Shown: positions 21,823 through 30,135 of the stretch, piece by piece | Layout of the letters: each line of letters starts with the position of its first letter | Position numbering within the stretch: position 1 is the stretch's first letter | Source of the DNA: Chloroflexota bacterium | GTDB lineage: Bacteria > Chloroflexota > Dormibacteria > CF-121 | Assembly (NCBI GenBank): GCA_005881215.1 | Contig: VBDZ01000007.1 | Span: 1 to 33,914, forward strand | DNA: 33,914 nucleotides | Direction of reading: 5' to 3' | Notes under the pieces: generated by a model | Told to the model about the DNA's origin: nothing | Database searches by the model: none | The model's input: the letters and a program-made list of their open reading frames with translations, nothing else | Translations under genes and position numbers: made by a program

Positions 21823-22317
21823 TCAGTACCCGGGTTTCGCCGACGCCGCCGGCGCCGCCGCCAGGTCGGGGGTAGCGGCGAACCATTTGCCGAAGAGGCC
21901 CTGGCCATAGGCATCACCGGAATCCCCATCCTTTGAATAGGTGTAGAGCGGATGGCCGTTGTAGAGGACCTGGCTGCCGTTCGATCCATTGAGCAGGCTC
22001 AGCGTTCCCGGTAAGGCCGGAGTGCTGGTCGGGGCCCCCGATGGGGAGAGCAGGGGCGGCCAGGTGCTGGCGCATCCACCGGTGCAGGCGATCGAGGTCG
22101 CCGTGTCGGGTGTGAAGTAGTAGAGCGTGAGTCCCCTGGCATTCTTCAGCACGGTTTCAGTTTTTCCGGCGACCTTCATGGACGCGGTATGGATCAGCGC
22201 CGAGCTACTCGCCGACGTCGCCGCCCCGGTACCGGCCGAGGTCGTGCCGCCGCAGGCAGCCAGCGAAACGGCCGCTAACCCCAGGATGATGGTGCCCGGA
22301 ATTCGAAGTGTCAGCAT
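21823..22317 (-). CDS. COG4315-type lipoprotein (secreted Yx(FWY)xxD repeat family)
   Basis: Lipobox LAAVSLAACG; GLTLYYFTPDTATSIACTGGCASTWPPLL...QVLYNGHPLYTYSKDGDSGDAYGQGLFGKWFAATPD. Confidence 0.88.
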   Translation of the reverse strand: MLTLRIPGTIILGLAAVSLAACGGTTSAGTGAATSASSSALIHTASMKVAGKTETVLKNARGLTLYYFTPDTATSIACTGGCASTWPPLLSPSGAPTSTPALPGTLSLLNGSNGSQVLYNGHPLYTYSKDGDSGDAYGQGLFGKWFAATPDLAAAPAASAKPGY

Positions 22318-22381
22318 GAAGGCCTCCTCGGCGCCAAGCCGGACGCCACAGGTGAATACCCGGGCTGGTTACGTTCGGCTC

Positions 22382-22410
22382 TTGCCAAGCGGACGGGCGC
22401 GTTGTACGAT
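22382..22410 (+). promoter_or_regulatory. Candidate sigma70-type promoter of the aromatic operon (TTGCCA-17bp-TACGAT)
   Basis: Hexamers at 22382-22387 and 22405-22410, exact 17-bp spacer, 10 nt before the leader ORF ATG. Confidence 0.6.
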
Positions 22411-22420
22411 GCCGAGCACG

Positions 22421-22495
22421 ATGATGCGGCGCATTCGATTTGGGTACTTTTACGCCTATCTCGGGCCGGCTCGGGTCCGGCTCGGGATGAGCTAG
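22421..22495 (+). CDS. Putative aromatic-rich leader peptide MMRRIRFGYFYAYLGPARVRLGMS
   Basis: 24-codon ORF with TTT GGG TAC TTT TAC GCC TAT, between promoter and aromatic operon. Confidence 0.6.
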   Translation: MMRRIRFGYFYAYLGPARVRLGMS

Positions 22496-22577
22496 CGCCG
22501 CTCCTTCCCAGCATCACCCGACGACCGGCCCTCCTCCAGCAGAGCGATAACGTGGCGCACCCAGGAGGTAGAGAGGA

Positions 22578-22946
22578 ATGCCGGTTCGAGGGATTCGCGG
22601 GGCAACGACCACACAAGAAGACAGCGAGGTGGCGATCATCGAGGCAACCAGCGAGTTGCTCGCAGAAATCGCGCGCGAGAACGCGCTCGATCCGGATGAC
22701 ATCGCGGCCGCCTGGTTCACGACCACACCCGATCTGACGGCGGAGTTCCCCGCCGCGGCCGCTCGTCAGCTCGGTTGGGGCGATGTGCCCCTGATGTGCG
22801 CGCACGAGATGGCGGTGCCGGCCTCGAATCCGCGCAGCCTTGCCCGTTGTATCCGGGTCCTCCTGCTGGTCAACACCACCGTGCCTTCGTCGGCGATCCA
22901 CTTCGTTTATCTGCGGGGCGCCGAAAAGCTCCGGGTGACGGCATGA
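22578..22946 (+). CDS. aroH: Chorismate mutase, AroH class
   Basis: 122 aa; VRGIRGATTTQEDSEVAIIEATSELLAEIARENAL...TTTPDLTAEFPAAAARQLGW...VPLMCAHEMAVP...IRVLLLVNT...HFVYLRGAEKLR. Confidence 0.95.
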   Translation: MPVRGIRGATTTQEDSEVAIIEATSELLAEIARENALDPDDIAAAWFTTTPDLTAEFPAAAARQLGWGDVPLMCAHEMAVPASNPRSLARCIRVLLLVNTTVPSSAIHFVYLRGAEKLRVTA

Positions 22947-23965
22947 TCATCGTGATGCGCCATGACGCGACCTCGGCGCAGGTGGCGGCGGTGGTCGCTC
23001 AGGTCCAGGCGCACGGGATGCGCACCCACCTGAGCGACGGCGACGAGCGGACCGTGATCGGCGTGATCGGAACCAATCCCTTCGCGCTGCGGGATCTCTT
23101 TATCGAGGCCCCCGGCGTGGCTGAGGTGGTTCCCATCACCAAGCCCTTCAAGCTGTCGAACCGCGAGTTCCGGTCGCGCGACACCCGGATCAAGGTCAAC
23201 TCCCACGAAGTCGGCGGCGATCGGATCTGGATCGTGGCCGGGCCGTGTTCGGTCGACAACGAAGAGCTGTACCTCGAAAGCTGCCGGCTGGTGCAGGCGG
23301 CCGGGGCCCACGCCCTGCGTGGCGGTGTCTTCAAGCCACGCACCTCGCCCTACAGCTTCCAGGGGCTGCGCGCGGGCGGGGTCGAGATCCTTCGCGAAGC
23401 GCGCCGCCAGACCGGTCTCCCGCTCGTCTGCGAGGTGCTGGCGCCGGCCGACATCGACACGCTGGCGGAGCTCGCCGACGTGTTACAGATCGGGGCCCGC
23501 AACATGCAGAACTTCGCCCTGCTGTCCGAGGTAGGCCGGCTACGCAAACCGGTCCTCCTGAAACGCGGCATGTCGGCGACGATCGAAGAGTGGCTACTGT
23601 CGGCCGAGTACATCCTGAGCCAGGGAAACTACCAGGTCATCCTTTGCGAGCGGGGCATCCGCACCTTCGAGACCTACACCCGCAACACCCTGGACCTCAA
23701 CGCCATCCCGCTGATCAAGGAGCTGAGCCACCTCCCCATCATCGTCGACCCCAGCCACGGCACCGGCCGGCGTTCACTGGTCACGGCGATGGCGCTGGCC
23801 GGCATCGCCGCCGGCGCCCACGGCCTGATGGTCGAGGTGCACGCCCAACCGGAGGTCGCGCTTTCCGATGGCGCGCAGTCGCTCACCCCCCAGGCATTCC
23901 GGCAGTTGGTCGAGCAGGTCGACGCCGTTGCCGCCGCGCTCCAGCGGCCGGTCGGAGTCTCGTGA
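22943..23965 (+). CDS. aroF: 3-deoxy-7-phosphoheptulonate synthase (DAHP synthase)
   Basis: VAGPCSVDNEELYLESCRLVQAAGAHALRGGVFKPRTSPYSFQGL...VLLKRGMSATIEEWLLSAEYI...IVDPSHGTGRRSLV; ATGA overlap with chorismate mutase. Confidence 0.96.
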   Translation: MIIVMRHDATSAQVAAVVAQVQAHGMRTHLSDGDERTVIGVIGTNPFALRDLFIEAPGVAEVVPITKPFKLSNREFRSRDTRIKVNSHEVGGDRIWIVAGPCSVDNEELYLESCRLVQAAGAHALRGGVFKPRTSPYSFQGLRAGGVEILREARRQTGLPLVCEVLAPADIDTLAELADVLQIGARNMQNFALLSEVGRLRKPVLLKRGMSATIEEWLLSAEYILSQGNYQVILCERGIRTFETYTRNTLDLNAIPLIKELSHLPIIVDPSHGTGRRSLVTAMALAGIAAGAHGLMVEVHAQPEVALSDGAQSLTPQAFRQLVEQVDAVAAALQRPVGVS

Positions 23966-24777
23966 TGCGAGTCGGGATCATCGGTCTGGGTTTGATCGGT
24001 GGCTCCCTGGCGCTTGCCCTGCGCCAGCTCGGACGCTCGATCGAAGTCATCGGCGTGGCCAAGCGGGCGGAAAGTGCGGCCGAAGCGACCCGGCGCGGTG
24101 CGGTCGATCGAGCCTCAACGGATCTGGCGGACCTCTCGGACTGCGACATCGTGGTCATCGCCACCCCGATCGAGGAGATTGCCGTTGTGATGGAACGGCT
24201 CGGTCCCCTCGTCGCGACCGAAACGCTCATTACCGATGTCGCCAGTGTCAAGCGGCCGGTTCTCGACTGGGCACAGCGCTTACCGAACCCATCGCGTTTT
24301 CTCGGTGGTCACCCGGTGGCTGGCAAGACGCGAACTGGGCTGGCGGCGAGCGATGCCGCCATCTTTGCGCACGAGCCGTGGATTTTCACGCCGGTCGAGG
24401 GTCAGGATGTCCGGCCGTTCGATACCTGGTTCGAGATCGTGCGCGCGATCGGCGGCACCGTGAGCTTCATGGGCGCCGACGCGCACGACCGGCAGATGGC
24501 CTTTCTCAGCCACCTGGCGTTCGTGGTGAGCGCGGCCTTCTCCGAAACGATCCAGAAAAACGCGGATCCGACGGCCGGCGGGCCCGGCTACCGCAGCCTG
24601 GTTCGTCTCGCCGGTGGGGAGCCTTCGATGTACGAGGCAATCGCGCGGGAAAACCGCGACGCCCTGGTCGACGCGATCGACCGCTTCGACGCCGTCCTGC
24701 ACCGCTATCGCCAGCGAATCGGCGACGGCGCTCGGGTGCGGGAACTGTTCGGCGGAGCCGTGCATGCCGGGCGCTGA
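23965..24777 (+). CDS. tyrA: Prephenate dehydrogenase
   Basis: MRVGIIGLGLIGGSLALALRQLG...VVIATPIEEI...LITDVASVKRPV...FLGGHPVAGKTRTGLAASDAAIF. Confidence 0.93.
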   Translation: MRVGIIGLGLIGGSLALALRQLGRSIEVIGVAKRAESAAEATRRGAVDRASTDLADLSDCDIVVIATPIEEIAVVMERLGPLVATETLITDVASVKRPVLDWAQRLPNPSRFLGGHPVAGKTRTGLAASDAAIFAHEPWIFTPVEGQDVRPFDTWFEIVRAIGGTVSFMGADAHDRQMAFLSHLAFVVSAAFSETIQKNADPTAGGPGYRSLVRLAGGEPSMYEAIARENRDALVDAIDRFDAVLHRYRQRIGDGARVRELFGGAVHAGR

Positions 24778-26191
24778 GGTGGACCAGATGGAGCTGGTGC
24801 AGCCGGCATCGCGCATTGCCGGGCAGCTCAGGGTCCCCGGTGACAAATCCATCGCGCACCGGGCGCTGATCCTGGGAGCACTCGCGGACGGCGACTCGGT
24901 GATCAGCGGCCTGCCCGAGGGTGAGGACGTGCGCGCGACGGTTGCCTGCCTGCGAAGCCTCGGCGTCACGATTGCTCCGTCGCCAATCTCTCCCTCCCCC
25001 TTGTGGGGAGGGCAGACAAAAGGTCCCTCCCCCTTGTGGGGAGGGTCGGGGAGGGGGTACAAGATCTCGCCTGCACCCTCTGCTGGAGGAGCCGGTTGGG
25101 GATTCGCAACCCCGCACGGTCCGCTCGACTGCGCCAACTCGGGGACAACGATGCGTCTGCTGGCGGGCGTGCTGGCCGGGAGCCGCGTGTCCGCCACGCT
25201 GGACGGCGATGCATCACTCCGGCGGCGGCCGATGGCTCGCGTCATCGAGCCCCTGCGCCGGATGGGCGCCCGGATCGACGCCAACGACGATCGCGCGCCG
25301 CTGATCGTGACCGGCACTCCACTACAGGGACGACATCACGTCCTCCCGGTGGCGAGTGCCCAGGTCAAGAGCGCCCTCCTCCTTGCGGGCCTGGCGGCCA
25401 GCGGACCCACCACGATCGTCGAACCCATGCCAACGCGCGATCATAGTGAGCGGTTGCTCACCGCCATGGGCGCGGAGCTCCGCGTCGAGGCGGGCACGGT
25501 CGAGTTGCGCCCGTCGCACCGGCCATTGCGTTCGATCGAACTGACGGTGCCCGGCGATTTCTCGTCGGCGTCCTACTGGTTGGCGGCCGCGGCGATGCGG
25601 CCCGGCTGGTCGGTAACGATTCAGGGTCTCGGACTGAATCCGACGCGCACCGCCTTCCTGCGCCTGCTCGAGTCCATGGGTGCCGAGGTCGTCGTCGAGC
25701 TCCGGTCGGGCGAGATCGAACCACTCGGCTCGGTCACCGTCGTGGGTGATCGACTCCGGGCGATCGACCTCGGAGCTGCTGACGTCGCGGCCGCGATCGA
25801 CGAGATTCCGGCCCTGGTCGCCGTCGCCACCCAGGCGAAAGGAGTGACCCGGATCGAGGGCGCGGCCGAACTCCGAGTCAAAGAGAGCGATCGGATCGCC
25901 GGCATGGCAGAGGGATTGCGTCGGATGGGCGCGCGGGTCGACGAGCGACCAGATGGGATCAGCGTCCACGGACCCACCGCCCTGCGGGGCACCACGGTCG
26001 GCTCGAATGGCGATCATCGGATCGCCATGGCGCTGGCGATTGCCGGGCTGGTGGCGTCAGGTCCGACGACCATCGCGGATGCCGACTGCGTCGCCGTCTC
26101 CTACCCGGGATTCTTCAGTGAGCTCCGGAGCATCTCGACCGAGCAGTTTCCCTCCCCCGCTGGCGGGGGAGGGTCAGGGTGGGGGCGGTGA
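24764..26191 (+). CDS. aroA: 3-phosphoshikimate 1-carboxyvinyltransferase (EPSP synthase) with repeat-derived insertion; start 24764 or 24788
   Basis: RIAGQLRVPGDKSIAHRALILGALADG; PLDCANSGTTMRLLAGVLAG; PGDFSSASYWLAAAAM; RIEGAAELRVKESDRIAGMAEGLRRMG; NGDHRIAMALAIAGL. Confidence 0.96.
   Translation: MPGAEVDQMELVQPASRIAGQLRVPGDKSIAHRALILGALADGDSVISGLPEGEDVRATVACLRSLGVTIAPSPISPSPLWGGQTKGPSPLWGGSGRGYKISPAPSAGGAGWGFATPHGPLDCANSGTTMRLLAGVLAGSRVSATLDGDASLRRRPMARVIEPLRRMGARIDANDDRAPLIVTGTPLQGRHHVLPVASAQVKSALLLAGLAASGPTTIVEPMPTRDHSERLLTAMGAELRVEAGTVELRPSHRPLRSIELTVPGDFSSASYWLAAAAMRPGWSVTIQGLGLNPTRTAFLRLLESMGAEVVVELRSGEIEPLGSVTVVGDRLRAIDLGAADVAAAIDEIPALVAVATQAKGVTRIEGAAELRVKESDRIAGMAEGLRRMGARVDERPDGISVHGPTALRGTTVGSNGDHRIAMALAIAGLVASGPTTIADADCVAVSYPGFFSELRSISTEQFPSPAGGGGSGWGR
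24991..25015 (+). repeat. Palindromic repeat copy A (partial) inside aroA
   Basis: TCCCTCCCCCTTGTGGGGAGGGCAG; arms CCCTCCCC/GGGGAGGG. Confidence 0.85.
25024..25058 (+). repeat. Palindromic repeat copy B inside aroA
   Basis: TCCCTCCCCCTTGTGGGGAGGGTCGGGGAGGGGGT; first 22 nt identical to copy A. Confidence 0.88.
26149..26186 (+). repeat. Palindromic repeat copy at the 3' end of aroA
   Basis: TCCCTCCCCCGCTGGCGGGGGAGGGTCAGGGTGGGGGC; arms CCCTCCCCCGC/GCGGGGGAGGG; encodes the AroA tail FPSPAGGGGSGWGR. Confidence 0.9.
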
Positions 26192-26976
26192 GCTCATCCG
26201 TCCTCCTCTTGGGCGACGCCGTTTCGCGGAGCCTCTCGCCCGCGATGCAGAACGCCGCCTTCGAGGCGCTGCAGATCGATTGCCACTACCTGGTTCGCGA
26301 GGTGGGACGCGCCGGCCTGGCGGCCGCCATCGCGGATGTCCGCGGCGACCATCAGATCCTCGGCGCCAACGTCACCATCCCGCACAAGGAATCGGTCATT
26401 CCCCTGCTCGACGAGCTCGACCCGCTGGCTCGTCGGGTCGGCGCGGTCAACACCGTCAGCCGGCAGGGCGGAAGGCTGAAGGGTTGGAATACTGACGTCG
26501 AGGGTTTCCGGTGCGCACTCGCCGAAATATCGTCCTCCCCCCTCGTGGGGGAGGGTCAGGGTGGGGGGTATGGTCGCGTTGCAATCATCGGCGCCGGTGG
26601 AGCCGCGCGGGCGGTTGCCGCGGCGCTGCCGCCCGCTGCTGAAATCTGGGTGATCGCGCGGAACATTGACCAGGCGCGACGCCTGTGCGACGACCTGAAT
26701 CTCGAGCGCGGCGGGCCGGTCGGCATCGAGGCGATGCAGACAACCGTCGACCGCGCCGAGCTGGTCGTCAACGCCACTCCCGCGGACCTGCCGCCGGCGT
26801 CCTGGCTGCGACCCGACCAACTGCGCTTCGATCTGCGGAGTCGTCGATCAGCCGAGGGCCGGGCCATGCTGCTGCATCAGGGCGCCGCATCGTTCGAGAT
26901 CTGGACCGGGCGGCCGGCGCCGCTCGCCGTCATGCGCGCCGCGCTGGAGCGTGCCGCTCAGGCGGTGCCGGCATGA
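26188..26976 (+). CDS. aroE: Shikimate dehydrogenase with repeat-derived insertion; start GTG 26188 (GTGA overlap) or 26179
   Basis: LGDAVSRSLSPAMQNAAFEAL...GANVTIPHKESVIPLLDEL...GAVNTVSRQGGRLKGWNTDVEGF...VAIIGAGGAARAVAAAL. Confidence 0.95.
   Translation: MSSSVLLLGDAVSRSLSPAMQNAAFEALQIDCHYLVREVGRAGLAAAIADVRGDHQILGANVTIPHKESVIPLLDELDPLARRVGAVNTVSRQGGRLKGWNTDVEGFRCALAEISSSPLVGEGQGGGYGRVAIIGAGGAARAVAAALPPAAEIWVIARNIDQARRLCDDLNLERGGPVGIEAMQTTVDRAELVVNATPADLPPASWLRPDQLRFDLRSRRSAEGRAMLLHQGAASFEIWTGRPAPLAVMRAALERAAQAVPA
26534..26568 (+). repeat. Palindromic repeat copy inside aroE
   Basis: CCTCCCCCCTCGTGGGGGAGGGTCAGGGTGGGGGG; shares GGGGGAGGGTCAGGGTGGGGG with the 26149 copy. Confidence 0.9.
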
Positions 26977-28118
26977 CGTTGCGGTTCCTCACCGCGGGCG
27001 AATCTCACGGCGAACGGCTGACGGTGATTCTCGACGGCGTTCCGGCCGGCCTGACTCTTCGCGAGGAGGACCTGGCGGCCGATTTGCGACGCCGGCAGGG
27101 TGGGCACGGCCGGGGCGGAAGGATGGCAATCGAACAGGATGCCGCCCACATCGTGGCCGGCGTTCGAGGCGGCCTCACGCTCGGCTCGCCGATCACGCTG
27201 GAAATCGCGAACCGCGACTGGGAGAACTGGCGGCAGGTGATGGCGGTCGACGCCGCGGAGGTCAAGCGGAAACCGATCACCCGGGTGCGCCCCGGCCACG
27301 CGGACCTGGCCGGCATGCTGAAGTACGGAGCCGATGACGCCCGCGACGTCCTGGAGCGAGCCAGTGCCCGCGAGACCGCGGCTCGGGTGGCGGCGGGCGG
27401 CGTGGCCAAGCTGCTGCTCGGCGAATTCGGCGCCCACGTCCGCAGCTACACGCGGTCGATCGGAGGCATAGATGCTGCCGTGCCGGCTTCGATCGACTGG
27501 GCGGCGGTCGAATCGTCACCGGTCCGATCTCCAGACCCGGAAGCCGGAGCGGCGATGGTGTCTGCGATCGACGCCGCCCGTGAATCTGGCGACACGCTTG
27601 GCGGGGTCTTCACCGTGATCGCCGACGGCGTCCCGCCGGGACTGGGCAGCTACCGGCAGTGGGACACCCGCCTCGACGGCCTGCTCGCCCAGGCGGTGGT
27701 CAGCATCCCGGCGTGCAAAGCGGTCGCCATCGGCGATGGGGAAGAGGCCGCGCGCCGGCCCGGCTCACAGGCGCATGACGTCCCGGTTTACGACGACGGT
27801 CGGTTGCGCCACGAGACCAACCGCGCCGGCGGCCTGACGGGCGGCATCACCAACGGCGAACCGGTGGTGGTGCATGGCTTCATGAAGCCGATCTCGACCC
27901 TGCTCAAGCCGCTGGCGACGGTTGACCTGAAGACGAAAGAGCCCGCCCGCGCCCACTACGAGCGGAGCGACATCTGTGTGGTGCCGGCAGCCGGTGTCGT
28001 GGGCGAAGCCATGGTCGCGCTCGTCCTGGCCGGCGCGCTTCTCGAAAAGTTCGGCGGCGACTCTGTCAACGAGCTCCGGCGAAATGTCGAAGCCTATCTG
28101 CAGCAGGTGCGCCGGTGA
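26973..28118 (+). CDS. aroC: Chorismate synthase
   Basis: LRFLTAGESHGERLTVILDGVPAGL...DLRRRQGGHGRGGRMAIEQDAAHIVAGVRGGLTLGSPITLEIANRDWENW...RPGHADLAGMLKYG...RASARETAARVAAG. Confidence 0.97.
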   Translation: MTLRFLTAGESHGERLTVILDGVPAGLTLREEDLAADLRRRQGGHGRGGRMAIEQDAAHIVAGVRGGLTLGSPITLEIANRDWENWRQVMAVDAAEVKRKPITRVRPGHADLAGMLKYGADDARDVLERASARETAARVAAGGVAKLLLGEFGAHVRSYTRSIGGIDAAVPASIDWAAVESSPVRSPDPEAGAAMVSAIDAARESGDTLGGVFTVIADGVPPGLGSYRQWDTRLDGLLAQAVVSIPACKAVAIGDGEEAARRPGSQAHDVPVYDDGRLRHETNRAGGLTGGITNGEPVVVHGFMKPISTLLKPLATVDLKTKEPARAHYERSDICVVPAAGVVGEAMVALVLAGALLEKFGGDSVNELRRNVEAYLQQVRR

Positions 28119-29707
28119 ATAACGTGGTGCTCGTCGGCTTCATGGGGAGTGGTAAGTCCACCGTCGGGCCGATCCTCGCCAGGCTCCGAAACCGGCCATT
28201 TGTCGATCTCGATGATGAAATTGCGCAGGAGGCCCACCGTCCAATCCCGCGAATCTTCGCCGAAGAAGGTGAAGAAGGGTTTCGGCGGCGCGAGTCGCGG
28301 GCGCTGGAGCGCGCGTTGGGCCGCGAAGATTGCGTGGTCGCCGTTGGAGGCGGCGCTCCGAAGAACGACGACAACTGGGAACGCATCCGGAGTGGCAACT
28401 GGGTTGTGGCGCTCACCGCCGAACCGGCAGAACTCGCCCGCCGACTCAGTGGGTCGACTGAACGGCCCCTGCTTCAGCCGGACCCACCGTCCGCGATTGC
28501 TTCGCTGCTACGGGAACGTCTGCATCGCTATCTCGAGGCGGATCTGGTGGTCAGCACCGATGACGTTGCCCCAGAGCTGATTGCCCGGCGGCTGAACGAC
28601 CGGCTGGCCTCTCGTGGAATCGAGCGGGTGCGTATCGAGGTACCAGGCTCGCCGCACGAAGCGACCGTCGGCACGCGACTGCGTCCGCTCATCGCGTCGA
28701 CCCTGGACCGGCTGGCCGTCTCTGGAACCGTTGTCATCGTCAGCGACCCGATCGTGGTCGAGGCACACGGCGCCACCCTGCTTGACGAACTGTCGTCTGC
28801 CGGCATCAACGCCCGGCTGCACCGGGTGCCGGTGGGGGAACCGGCGAAATCACTGGACGTGCTCGCGGGGATCTACGAAGCGCTGGCTGCGGCCGGCGTC
28901 GATCGGGCCGGTGCGCTGATCGCCTTCGGCGGCGGCGCGGTCGGCGACGTCGCCGGATTCGCCGCCGCGACCTGGATGCGCGGCATCCGGTACATCCAGG
29001 TGCCCACCACGCTACTGGCGATGGTCGACAGCAGCATCGGCGGCAAGACCGCGATCAACCTGCCGGCCGGTAAGAATCTGGCCGGGGCGGTCCATCAGCC
29101 CTCGGCGATCTTCTGCGATCTCGACTACCTCGCCACCCTTCCGGATGACGAGTACCGCGCGGCACTCGCCGAGGTCTTCAAGGCCGGCGTGATCGCCGAT
29201 CGCGCTTTCTTCGACTGGCTAACGACCAATCTGGCGGCGTTGCTGGGTCGGGAACCAACCGTTGTTCTCCAGGCGGTGGCGCGCGCCATTCGGATCAAGG
29301 CCGCCGTCGTGGCGAGCGATCCATACGAAACCGGTCCCCGCGCGATCCTCAACTACGGGCACACCGTCGCCCATGCGCTCGAACGGGCGGCCGGGTACGG
29401 TCAGTTGCGACACGGTGAGGCGGTGGCGTGGGGCATGACGGTGGCGGCGCGCCTCAGCGTGCTGGCCATGAACTGCCCAGCGTCGGCCGCCGAAGCGCAG
29501 GACGAGTTGCTCCGCGCCAGCGGTCTGCTCGCGACGCGTCCCACCATCCGGAGCGCCGACCTGGTCGAGGCCATGCGCCACGACAAGAAGTCACGGGATG
29601 GGAGTCCACGCTGGGTCCTGCTGCGCGAGATCGGCAGCGTGGACTATGGCCGTAGTGTCGCCCCGTCGACCGTCGAGGCCGCCCTGGCGGAGGTGATGGG
29701 CGGGTGA
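28115..29707 (+). CDS. aroKB: Fused shikimate kinase / 3-dehydroquinate synthase
   Basis: 530 aa; N-terminal VLVGFMGSGKSTVGPILARLRNRPFVDLDDEI; C-terminal AFGGGAVGDVAGFAAATWMRGIRYIQVPTTLLAMVDSSIGGKTAINLPAGKNLAGAVHQPSAIFCDL. Confidence 0.95.
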   Translation: MNNVVLVGFMGSGKSTVGPILARLRNRPFVDLDDEIAQEAHRPIPRIFAEEGEEGFRRRESRALERALGREDCVVAVGGGAPKNDDNWERIRSGNWVVALTAEPAELARRLSGSTERPLLQPDPPSAIASLLRERLHRYLEADLVVSTDDVAPELIARRLNDRLASRGIERVRIEVPGSPHEATVGTRLRPLIASTLDRLAVSGTVVIVSDPIVVEAHGATLLDELSSAGINARLHRVPVGEPAKSLDVLAGIYEALAAAGVDRAGALIAFGGGAVGDVAGFAAATWMRGIRYIQVPTTLLAMVDSSIGGKTAINLPAGKNLAGAVHQPSAIFCDLDYLATLPDDEYRAALAEVFKAGVIADRAFFDWLTTNLAALLGREPTVVLQAVARAIRIKAAVVASDPYETGPRAILNYGHTVAHALERAAGYGQLRHGEAVAWGMTVAARLSVLAMNCPASAAEAQDELLRASGLLATRPTIRSADLVEAMRHDKKSRDGSPRWVLLREIGSVDYGRSVAPSTVEAALAEVMGG

Positions 29708-30135
29708 GGGTCCTGGTGCTGAACGGTCCGAACCTCGGCTCGCTCGGTCGGCGCGAACCCGAGGTCTATGGCACCCGCACCCTCGCCGACCTGGAAGGGC
29801 TCCTGACGGCTCGCGCCGCGGAGCTCGGCATCCAGCTTCACTGCCTGCAGTCGAACCACGAGGGTCAGCTGATCGATTGGATCGAGCGAGAGGCGGTGGG
29901 AACCGACGCCATCATCATCAACCCGGGGGCGCTGTCCCACACCAGCCTGGCGCTGGCGGACGCCTTGCGCGGGTCCGCAAAGCCGGTGATCGAGGTGCAC
30001 ATTTCCAACGTGTTCGCTCGCGAGCCGGAGCGGCATCGGATGGTGACGGCCGCCGCGGCGAAGGGTGTGATTTCAGGTCTCGGCTTTGACGGATACCTGC
30101 TGGCTCTGAATTTCGTCGCGACCCTGCGCGCGTGA
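29704..30135 (+). CDS. aroQ: Type II 3-dehydroquinate dehydratase
   Basis: VLVLNGPNLGSLGRREPEVYGTRTLADLE...LQSNHEGQLIDWIE...IIINPGALSHTSLALADAL...EVHISNVFAREPERH. Confidence 0.96.
   Translation: MRVLVLNGPNLGSLGRREPEVYGTRTLADLEGLLTARAAELGIQLHCLQSNHEGQLIDWIEREAVGTDAIIINPGALSHTSLALADALRGSAKPVIEVHISNVFAREPERHRMVTAAAAKGVISGLGFDGYLLALNFVATLRA

Follow-up and report, generated by a model that had tools for sequence, protein, structure and literature searches.

Does a short open reading frame (ORF) dense in Phe and Tyr codons, lying in front of the shikimate operon of a soil Chloroflexota bacterium, serve as a leader peptide for that operon, and if so, through which output? Leader-peptide attenuation is textbook knowledge in Proteobacteria and is known in Actinobacteria, and no description of it in Chloroflexota was found in the open-access library searched. 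The window analyzed here is the whole stretch of 33,914 nucleotides that contains this locus. A first-pass annotation of the window had pointed out a 24-codon ORF with a Phe/Tyr run, a TTGCCA-17-TACGAT promoter 10 nt before it, and chorismate mutase and DAHP synthase genes downstream. The sequence and translation of the ORF matched exactly, the promoter was present as described, and Pfam confirmed both genes (table 1). A promoter scan of the region agreed, returning the leader promoter and one site on the opposite strand; a shuffled region averages 0.1.

Table 1. Features of the leader and of the shikimate operon in the window
Feature	Position	Strand	Basis or remark
Promoter-like TTGCCA-17-TACGAT	22382-22410	+	TTGCCA 22382-22387, TACGAT 22405-22410
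Leader peptide ORF, 24 codons	22421-22495	+	Translation MMRRIRFGYFYAYLGPARVRLGMS*
Sensor codons TTT GGG TAC TTT TAC GCC TAT (F-G-Y-F-Y-A-Y)	22439-22459	+	
S1, local hairpin within the ORF, arm A (CUCGGGCCGG) pairing with arm B (CCGGCUCGGG)	22460-22486	+	Predicted fold
S2, long hairpin GGGCCGG...CCGGCCC	22463-22531	+	Covariation; UAG stop and GCGCC in apical loop
S3, predicted hairpin using the 3' arm of S2 and pairing the Shine-Dalgarno and aroH start	22496-22606	+	Folding statistics
GGCGC adjoining the Shine-Dalgarno	22554-22558	+	Complementary to the S2-loop GCGCC that comes after UA of the stop codon
Shine-Dalgarno AGGAGG of aroH	22563-22568	+	
aroH, chorismate mutase type I, first structural gene	22578-22946	+	Pfam
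DAHP synthase (aroF)	22943-23965	+	Pfam; only DAHP synthase found in genomes of the genus
tyrA, aroA, aroE, aroC, aroK-aroB fusion, aroQ	23965-30135	+	Pfam

The operon is compact: its gene junctions overlap or abut, and aroH and aroF share an ATGA. According to Pfam, its products are chorismate mutase type I, DAHP synthase, prephenate dehydrogenase, EPSP synthase, shikimate dehydrogenase, chorismate synthase, a fusion of shikimate kinase and DHQ synthase, and dehydroquinase II. As a separate observation, in-frame segments of aroA and aroE, for example PSPLWGGQTKGPSPLWGGSGRG and SSSPLVGEGQGGGYG (24900-25080, 26150-26190, and 26520-26560), resemble copies of a palindromic repeat that entered the coding sequence and are translated with it.

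The leader ATG of the window copy lies 10 nt past the end of the -10 box, and in most leaders inspected about 8-10 nt separate a -10-like box from the start codon. Such a gap places the expected transcription start at about the ATG and leaves no space for a Shine-Dalgarno (SD) sequence. The leader ORF is probably leaderless or nearly so, with the transcription start deduced from the promoter. In most aroH leaders, a motif GGTTACG(T/A)(T/C)G was conserved upstream of this promoter, directly 5' of its -35 box (window 22360-22381), and the upstream region of one of them (L004) has it in duplicate. It may represent a regulator site or a piece of the divergent promoter. A divergent lipoprotein gene (21823-22317, minus strand; Pfam Lipoprotein_15, a secreted repeat of unknown function) shares one intergenic region with the leader.

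The first-pass annotation had conceded that it would fail if the ORF were not conserved at the peptide level. This objection falls away, since both the Phe/Tyr run and the whole ORF proved to be conserved in the genus. A search with the AroH protein found aroH in 15 of 15 same-genus genomes, and the leader was kept in 14 of them (e.g., MTGRVRFAGFYFYAYLGPARDRLGMG and MSRRLRFAYFYAYLGPARVRLGMS), together with the promoter, a spacing of 9-10 nt between the -10 box and the ATG, and the Phe/Tyr run. The sensor run reads FYFYAY in most orthologues versus FGYFYAY in the window copy, and the N-terminus of the leader varies. Only one indel inside the ORF was seen between clades, and it was in frame (6 nt); a 1-nt insertion at the stop changed TAG to TAA, and the noncoding spacer 3' of the stop had several 1-nt indels. 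Thus, the reading frame has been preserved as expected of a leader-peptide attenuator, and the short ORF is rich in codons for amino acids made or used by the downstream gene. In the fifteenth genome (L015, G004:C326), the promoter, the aromatic codons, and arm A were gone upstream of aroH, and the 3' half of the leader, from arm B onward, was intact; the loss of the 5' half is a natural deletion or an assembly join. All compared genomes are drafts; the named ones among them are metagenome-assembled genomes (MAGs).

Runs of this kind were rare in the background. Short-ORF starts numbered 4967 in 398,720 strand-bases, which comprised the strand sequence of the window and related loci rather than a full genome; at least five aromatic residues in seven codons occurred only in the leader and its orthologues. 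Moreover, a degenerate DNA pattern for FYAYLGPAR matched 13 stretches in a collection of genomes from 85,462 species, and all of them lay in Chloroflexi MAGs.

The element was not confined to aroH. A first covariance model, built from 14 aroH leaders and run over 110 genomes of the class, detected second copies within the same genomes. With both covariance models combined, seven genomes of the genus carried the element between rplT and pheS in the order rplT-leader-pheS, which corresponds to 7 of the 13 pheS genes of the genus. The peptides of these pheS copies were Phe-only, Tyr having been lost altogether (e.g., RFIFSRPARGRHELS and MANTMRRSDRFIFSRPARGRHELS). In two sister genera, the element was located 5' of a stand-alone DAHP synthase gene and encoded the peptides WFTFTGPARGRHGSS, FSFTFTGPARGRHGSS, MGRWRAWFTFTGPARGRHGSS, and MRRRAFSFTFTGPARGRHGSS. 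The second covariance model gave three weak matches in another family (E 2e-5, 0.003, and 0.02); all three loci precede DAHP synthase and have F-rich leaders such as RIWRYFFGFTGPAGGRSRTK*, followed by UAGCGC. When the regions in front of DAHP synthase genes were inspected directly, WSYWYSFTEPAGSRSRTS came to light in that family. Families f2 and f4 yielded RFYFYFEYATSAPGPVRVLLSK, RFYFWFEYLTGHSAGAGAALR, HFYFYFYAGPAFGLPARVTT, and RFYFYFINTSPAVGSALGAAR*, with the aromatic runs FYFYFEY, FYFWFEY, FYFYFYAGPA, and FYFYF. DAHP synthase was preceded by aromatic leader peptides in three further families of the class, and aromatic codon runs recurred with different nucleotide sequence in four families.

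A covariance-model scan of a 399-genome sample of the phylum gave no matches outside the class, and twenty additional aroF upstream regions, mostly of second or operon copies, had no such leader. In the assembly of the window's own genome, neither a second copy of the element nor pheS was found. In the window's genus, there is a single DAHP synthase per genome, in the aroH operon that carries the leader, and in g2 and g4 the leader sits on a stand-alone DAHP synthase gene; the leader thus appears to follow the main DAHP synthase, and the arrangement suggests that it sits wherever that gene is. The presence of the element before pheS and DAHP synthase, with Phe-centred peptides, fits the prediction for a sensor of Phe/Tyr-tRNA. 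Three pheS leaders, L106 (G013), L172 (G015), and L077 (G010), keep F-x-F or FF and PAR but deviate from S2 or are cut short by a one-base deletion; they are possibly decaying or re-wired copies.

At the RNA level, the best supported structure was the long hairpin S2, which starts at most a few bases away from the last aromatic codon. In 22 leaders from three targets, 89% of cells in S2 were paired versus 30-52% when the helix was slid. Its covariation score was 0.123 versus 0.064 in shuffles, and none of 500 shuffles reached the former value, a significance that is overstated by the relatedness of the sequences. Changes on both sides were seen at five pairs. An A/U pair beside CGGG:CCCG covaries in aroH leaders and was rejected as general support, because it breaks in pheS and one aroF copy; thus, the support for S2 rests on its P3 part. 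S2 was absent from two pheS leaders (L106 and L172). Among leaders of the four families, an S2-like architecture was predicted in f2, f3, and f4 despite quite different sequence, with arms such as GAGCUGAG:CUCAGCUC in pheS copies versus GGACGA:UCGUCC in f3. The local hairpin S1 was paired in 91% of cells and is compatible with S2; no covariation was detected for S1 in the aligned leaders. A further helix, P1, joining the start of the leader to the region after the stop, appeared in the fold of the window and was set aside as inconsistent across the set.

Downstream of the leader stop, the SD was predicted to be buried, on average, in all five target groups, below the values of shuffles. The mean probability of an unpaired SD was 0.10 in the 14 aroH leaders versus 0.37 with the spacer shuffled, and 0.08 versus 0.24 in the pheS leaders; the DAHP synthase groups gave 0.09, 0.30, and 0.12 versus 0.23, 0.44, and 0.30. 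In the window copy, however, the value was 0.46 versus 0.39 in shuffles, so SD burial is unsupported by the window's own sequence alone, and together with its two nearest relatives (0.46, 0.35, and 0.41) the window was not clearly better than shuffles. At codons 2-9 of aroH, which take part in S3, the choice among synonymous codons is unusually conserved (rank 3 of 113 windows). The GGCGC next to the SD was found in 21 of 22 leaders (A5 columns 113-117) and the GCGCC in the S2 loop in 22 of 22 (columns 49-53), with virtually no variation; their pairing is a candidate pseudoknot. Pairing against the SD through CCUCC after C2 alone was discarded as a general rule, several pheS copies having no good match.

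The first-pass annotation had classified the locus as a pheL-type attenuator. The stalling logic of this proposal is supported, but no intrinsic terminator-like site was found in 22000-23000, and the leader is likely to act by blocking the ribosome-binding site. No U-run followed a hairpin in the aligned leaders, and the element matched no Rfam family, T-box included, which speaks against a T-box. In f2 and f4, five DAHP synthase leaders (L119, L121, L123, L128, and L129) have a very stable hairpin CGAGAUCC...GGAUCUCG 3' of the stop, which is terminator-like but without a U-run.

Comparison among the loci brought out the leader ORF, its aromatic codons, S2, and the recurrence of the element before three Phe/Tyr targets, and the Phe/Tyr sensing logic of the leader is well supported. 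We consider it quite likely that the element is a ribosome-mediated attenuator sensing charged tRNA-Phe/tRNA-Tyr, near-leaderless and probably with translation initiation as its output. We infer that ribosomes stall in the leader, that their position decides between S2 and S3, that the output is initiation and not termination, and that the SD is released. Transcription would start on the leader ATG or a few bases ahead of it, and translation of the leader would do without an SD. When Phe/Tyr-tRNA is plentiful, the ribosome would pass the Phe/Tyr codons up to the UAG and melt arm B, and S2 would lose arm C. After release of the ribosome, or without translation, the local A:B hairpin (S1) would form, and the free arm C would pair with the SD region (S3), so that expression of aroH and of the DAHP synthase coupled to it stays low. 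Under a shortage of Phe or Tyr, the ribosome would stall on the FGYFYAY codons and mask arm A; B could then pair with C (upper S2), S3 would be prevented, and aroH would be translated. Because of the ATGA overlap, opening aroH should also raise DAHP synthase by translational coupling. In equilibrium folding with an imposed stalled ribosome, the SD was still buried in most aroH leaders, and the release step would therefore depend on folding during transcription.

The same sensor could instead act through premature transcription termination, either Rho-dependent or intrinsic without a good U-run, by which the eight-gene operon would be controlled at once. One promoter and a compact operon would suit such an output, as would the very stable post-stop hairpin of f2 and f4, and the mycobacterial cys leaders are also without terminators and have a Rho model proposed for them (PMC1262725). 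However, the absence of a terminator-like site around the leader and the position of the SD itself inside the competing hairpin, on average in all target groups, speak against termination, and we regard it as rather unlikely.

A larger departure would be that the conserved peptide itself acts, as an arrest peptide or a trans-acting small protein that includes the aromatic run. The GPAR/GPAG that follows the aromatics is indeed conserved across targets and families, but the codons of this C-terminal part form the S1/S2 arms, and the conservation is explained by RNA pairing; moreover, the N-terminus varies, the order of the aromatics varies (FGYFYAY, SFYFYAY, FIF, FTF, and FYFYFEY), and Tyr is missing from the pheS leaders, which makes a peptide function improbable. 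Still more doubtful is an RNA that binds a protein or metabolite, with the ORF incidental: the near-invariant UAGCGCC and GGCGC would be natural in such an RNA, whereas the in-frame indels of the ORF (the TAG-to-TAA insertion excepted), the recurrence of aromatic runs in differing nucleotide sequence, and the lack of an Rfam match would not. A chance ORF before a biosynthetic operon can hardly be entertained, being refuted by conservation in the genus, by the lack of an equally aromatic background ORF, by the copies found with the covariance models, and by the covariation of S2.

The best reading is therefore a Phe/Tyr switch that acts like pheL, pheM, or aroR with an RNA architecture of its own. 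Whether it belongs to a lineage-specific class of near-leaderless, terminator-free Chloroflexota switches, in which one scaffold was moved among Phe/Tyr genes and its codons were re-tuned for each target, seems to us evenly balanced. The scaffold of such a class would consist of sensor codons, a stop-in-loop hairpin, an SD-burying competitor, and possibly a GCGCC:GGCGC pseudoknot; its targets would be DAHP synthase, pheS, and the shikimate operon. These three targets provide a candidate regulon for bacteria that are represented here mostly by metagenome assemblies. In addition, leaderless translation is predicted in them, one RNA scaffold is carried between different target genes, and the covariance model can be used for annotating more genomes.

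Judged by its anatomy in the sequence, the element can be assigned to the leader-peptide attenuators, and it falls outside the terminator-type pheL/pheM class, having neither an intrinsic terminator nor a match to an Rfam leader. In Escherichia coli, pheM lies between rplT and pheS, and the pheL-pheA attenuator is terminator-based. Both pheM-pheST and pheL-pheA are described, the former as regulated by attenuation and the latter by stalling on the Phe codons of a short leader (PMC11802643). The pheS copies of the genus resemble pheM-pheST in following rplT directly and in their Phe codons; in contrast, the window copy targets the shikimate operon, has no U-tract terminator, and has an RNA scaffold common to the aro leaders. 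Stalling on Phe codons in a short leader would be shared with pheL-pheA, whose target, unlike the operon of the window, is chorismate mutase-prephenate dehydratase.

Actinobacteria offer other parallels. In mycobacterial cys operons, leaderless polycysteine ORFs are reported as amino-acid-responsive attenuators (Canestrari et al. 2020, cited in PMC13236596); these leaders had been predicted in 2005, with no conserved hairpins reported there (PMC1262725). They resemble the Chloroflexota element in their short ORF, leaderless there and probably near-leaderless here, and in having no obvious terminator, and differ in sensing cysteine and in being actinobacterial. The LEU element upstream of leuA in Actinobacteria combines a leader peptide containing regulatory codons with conserved alternative structures reaching the SD (PMC1262725), as predicted here, but it is specific for leucine and is built differently, with a conserved pseudoknot. 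The actinobacterial cys leaders and LEU elements are the nearest systems as regards the want of a clear terminator. In Corynebacterium glutamicum, the leader AroR, with Phe-Tyr-Phe, precedes the DAHP synthase operon (aroR-aroF; Neshat et al. 2014, summarized in PMC11802643); stalling under Phe limitation enhances expression, and the mechanism is described as transcription attenuation. Here, too, an aromatic leader peptide stands upstream of an operon containing DAHP synthase, but the Chloroflexota element is also found on pheS and aroH, has a predicted SD-burying hairpin, and has no recognizable terminator; aroR-aroF comes from another phylum, and the comparison with it covers leader peptide, target, and described mechanism. 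In logic, the nearest known systems are AroR of C. glutamicum and pheM before pheST.
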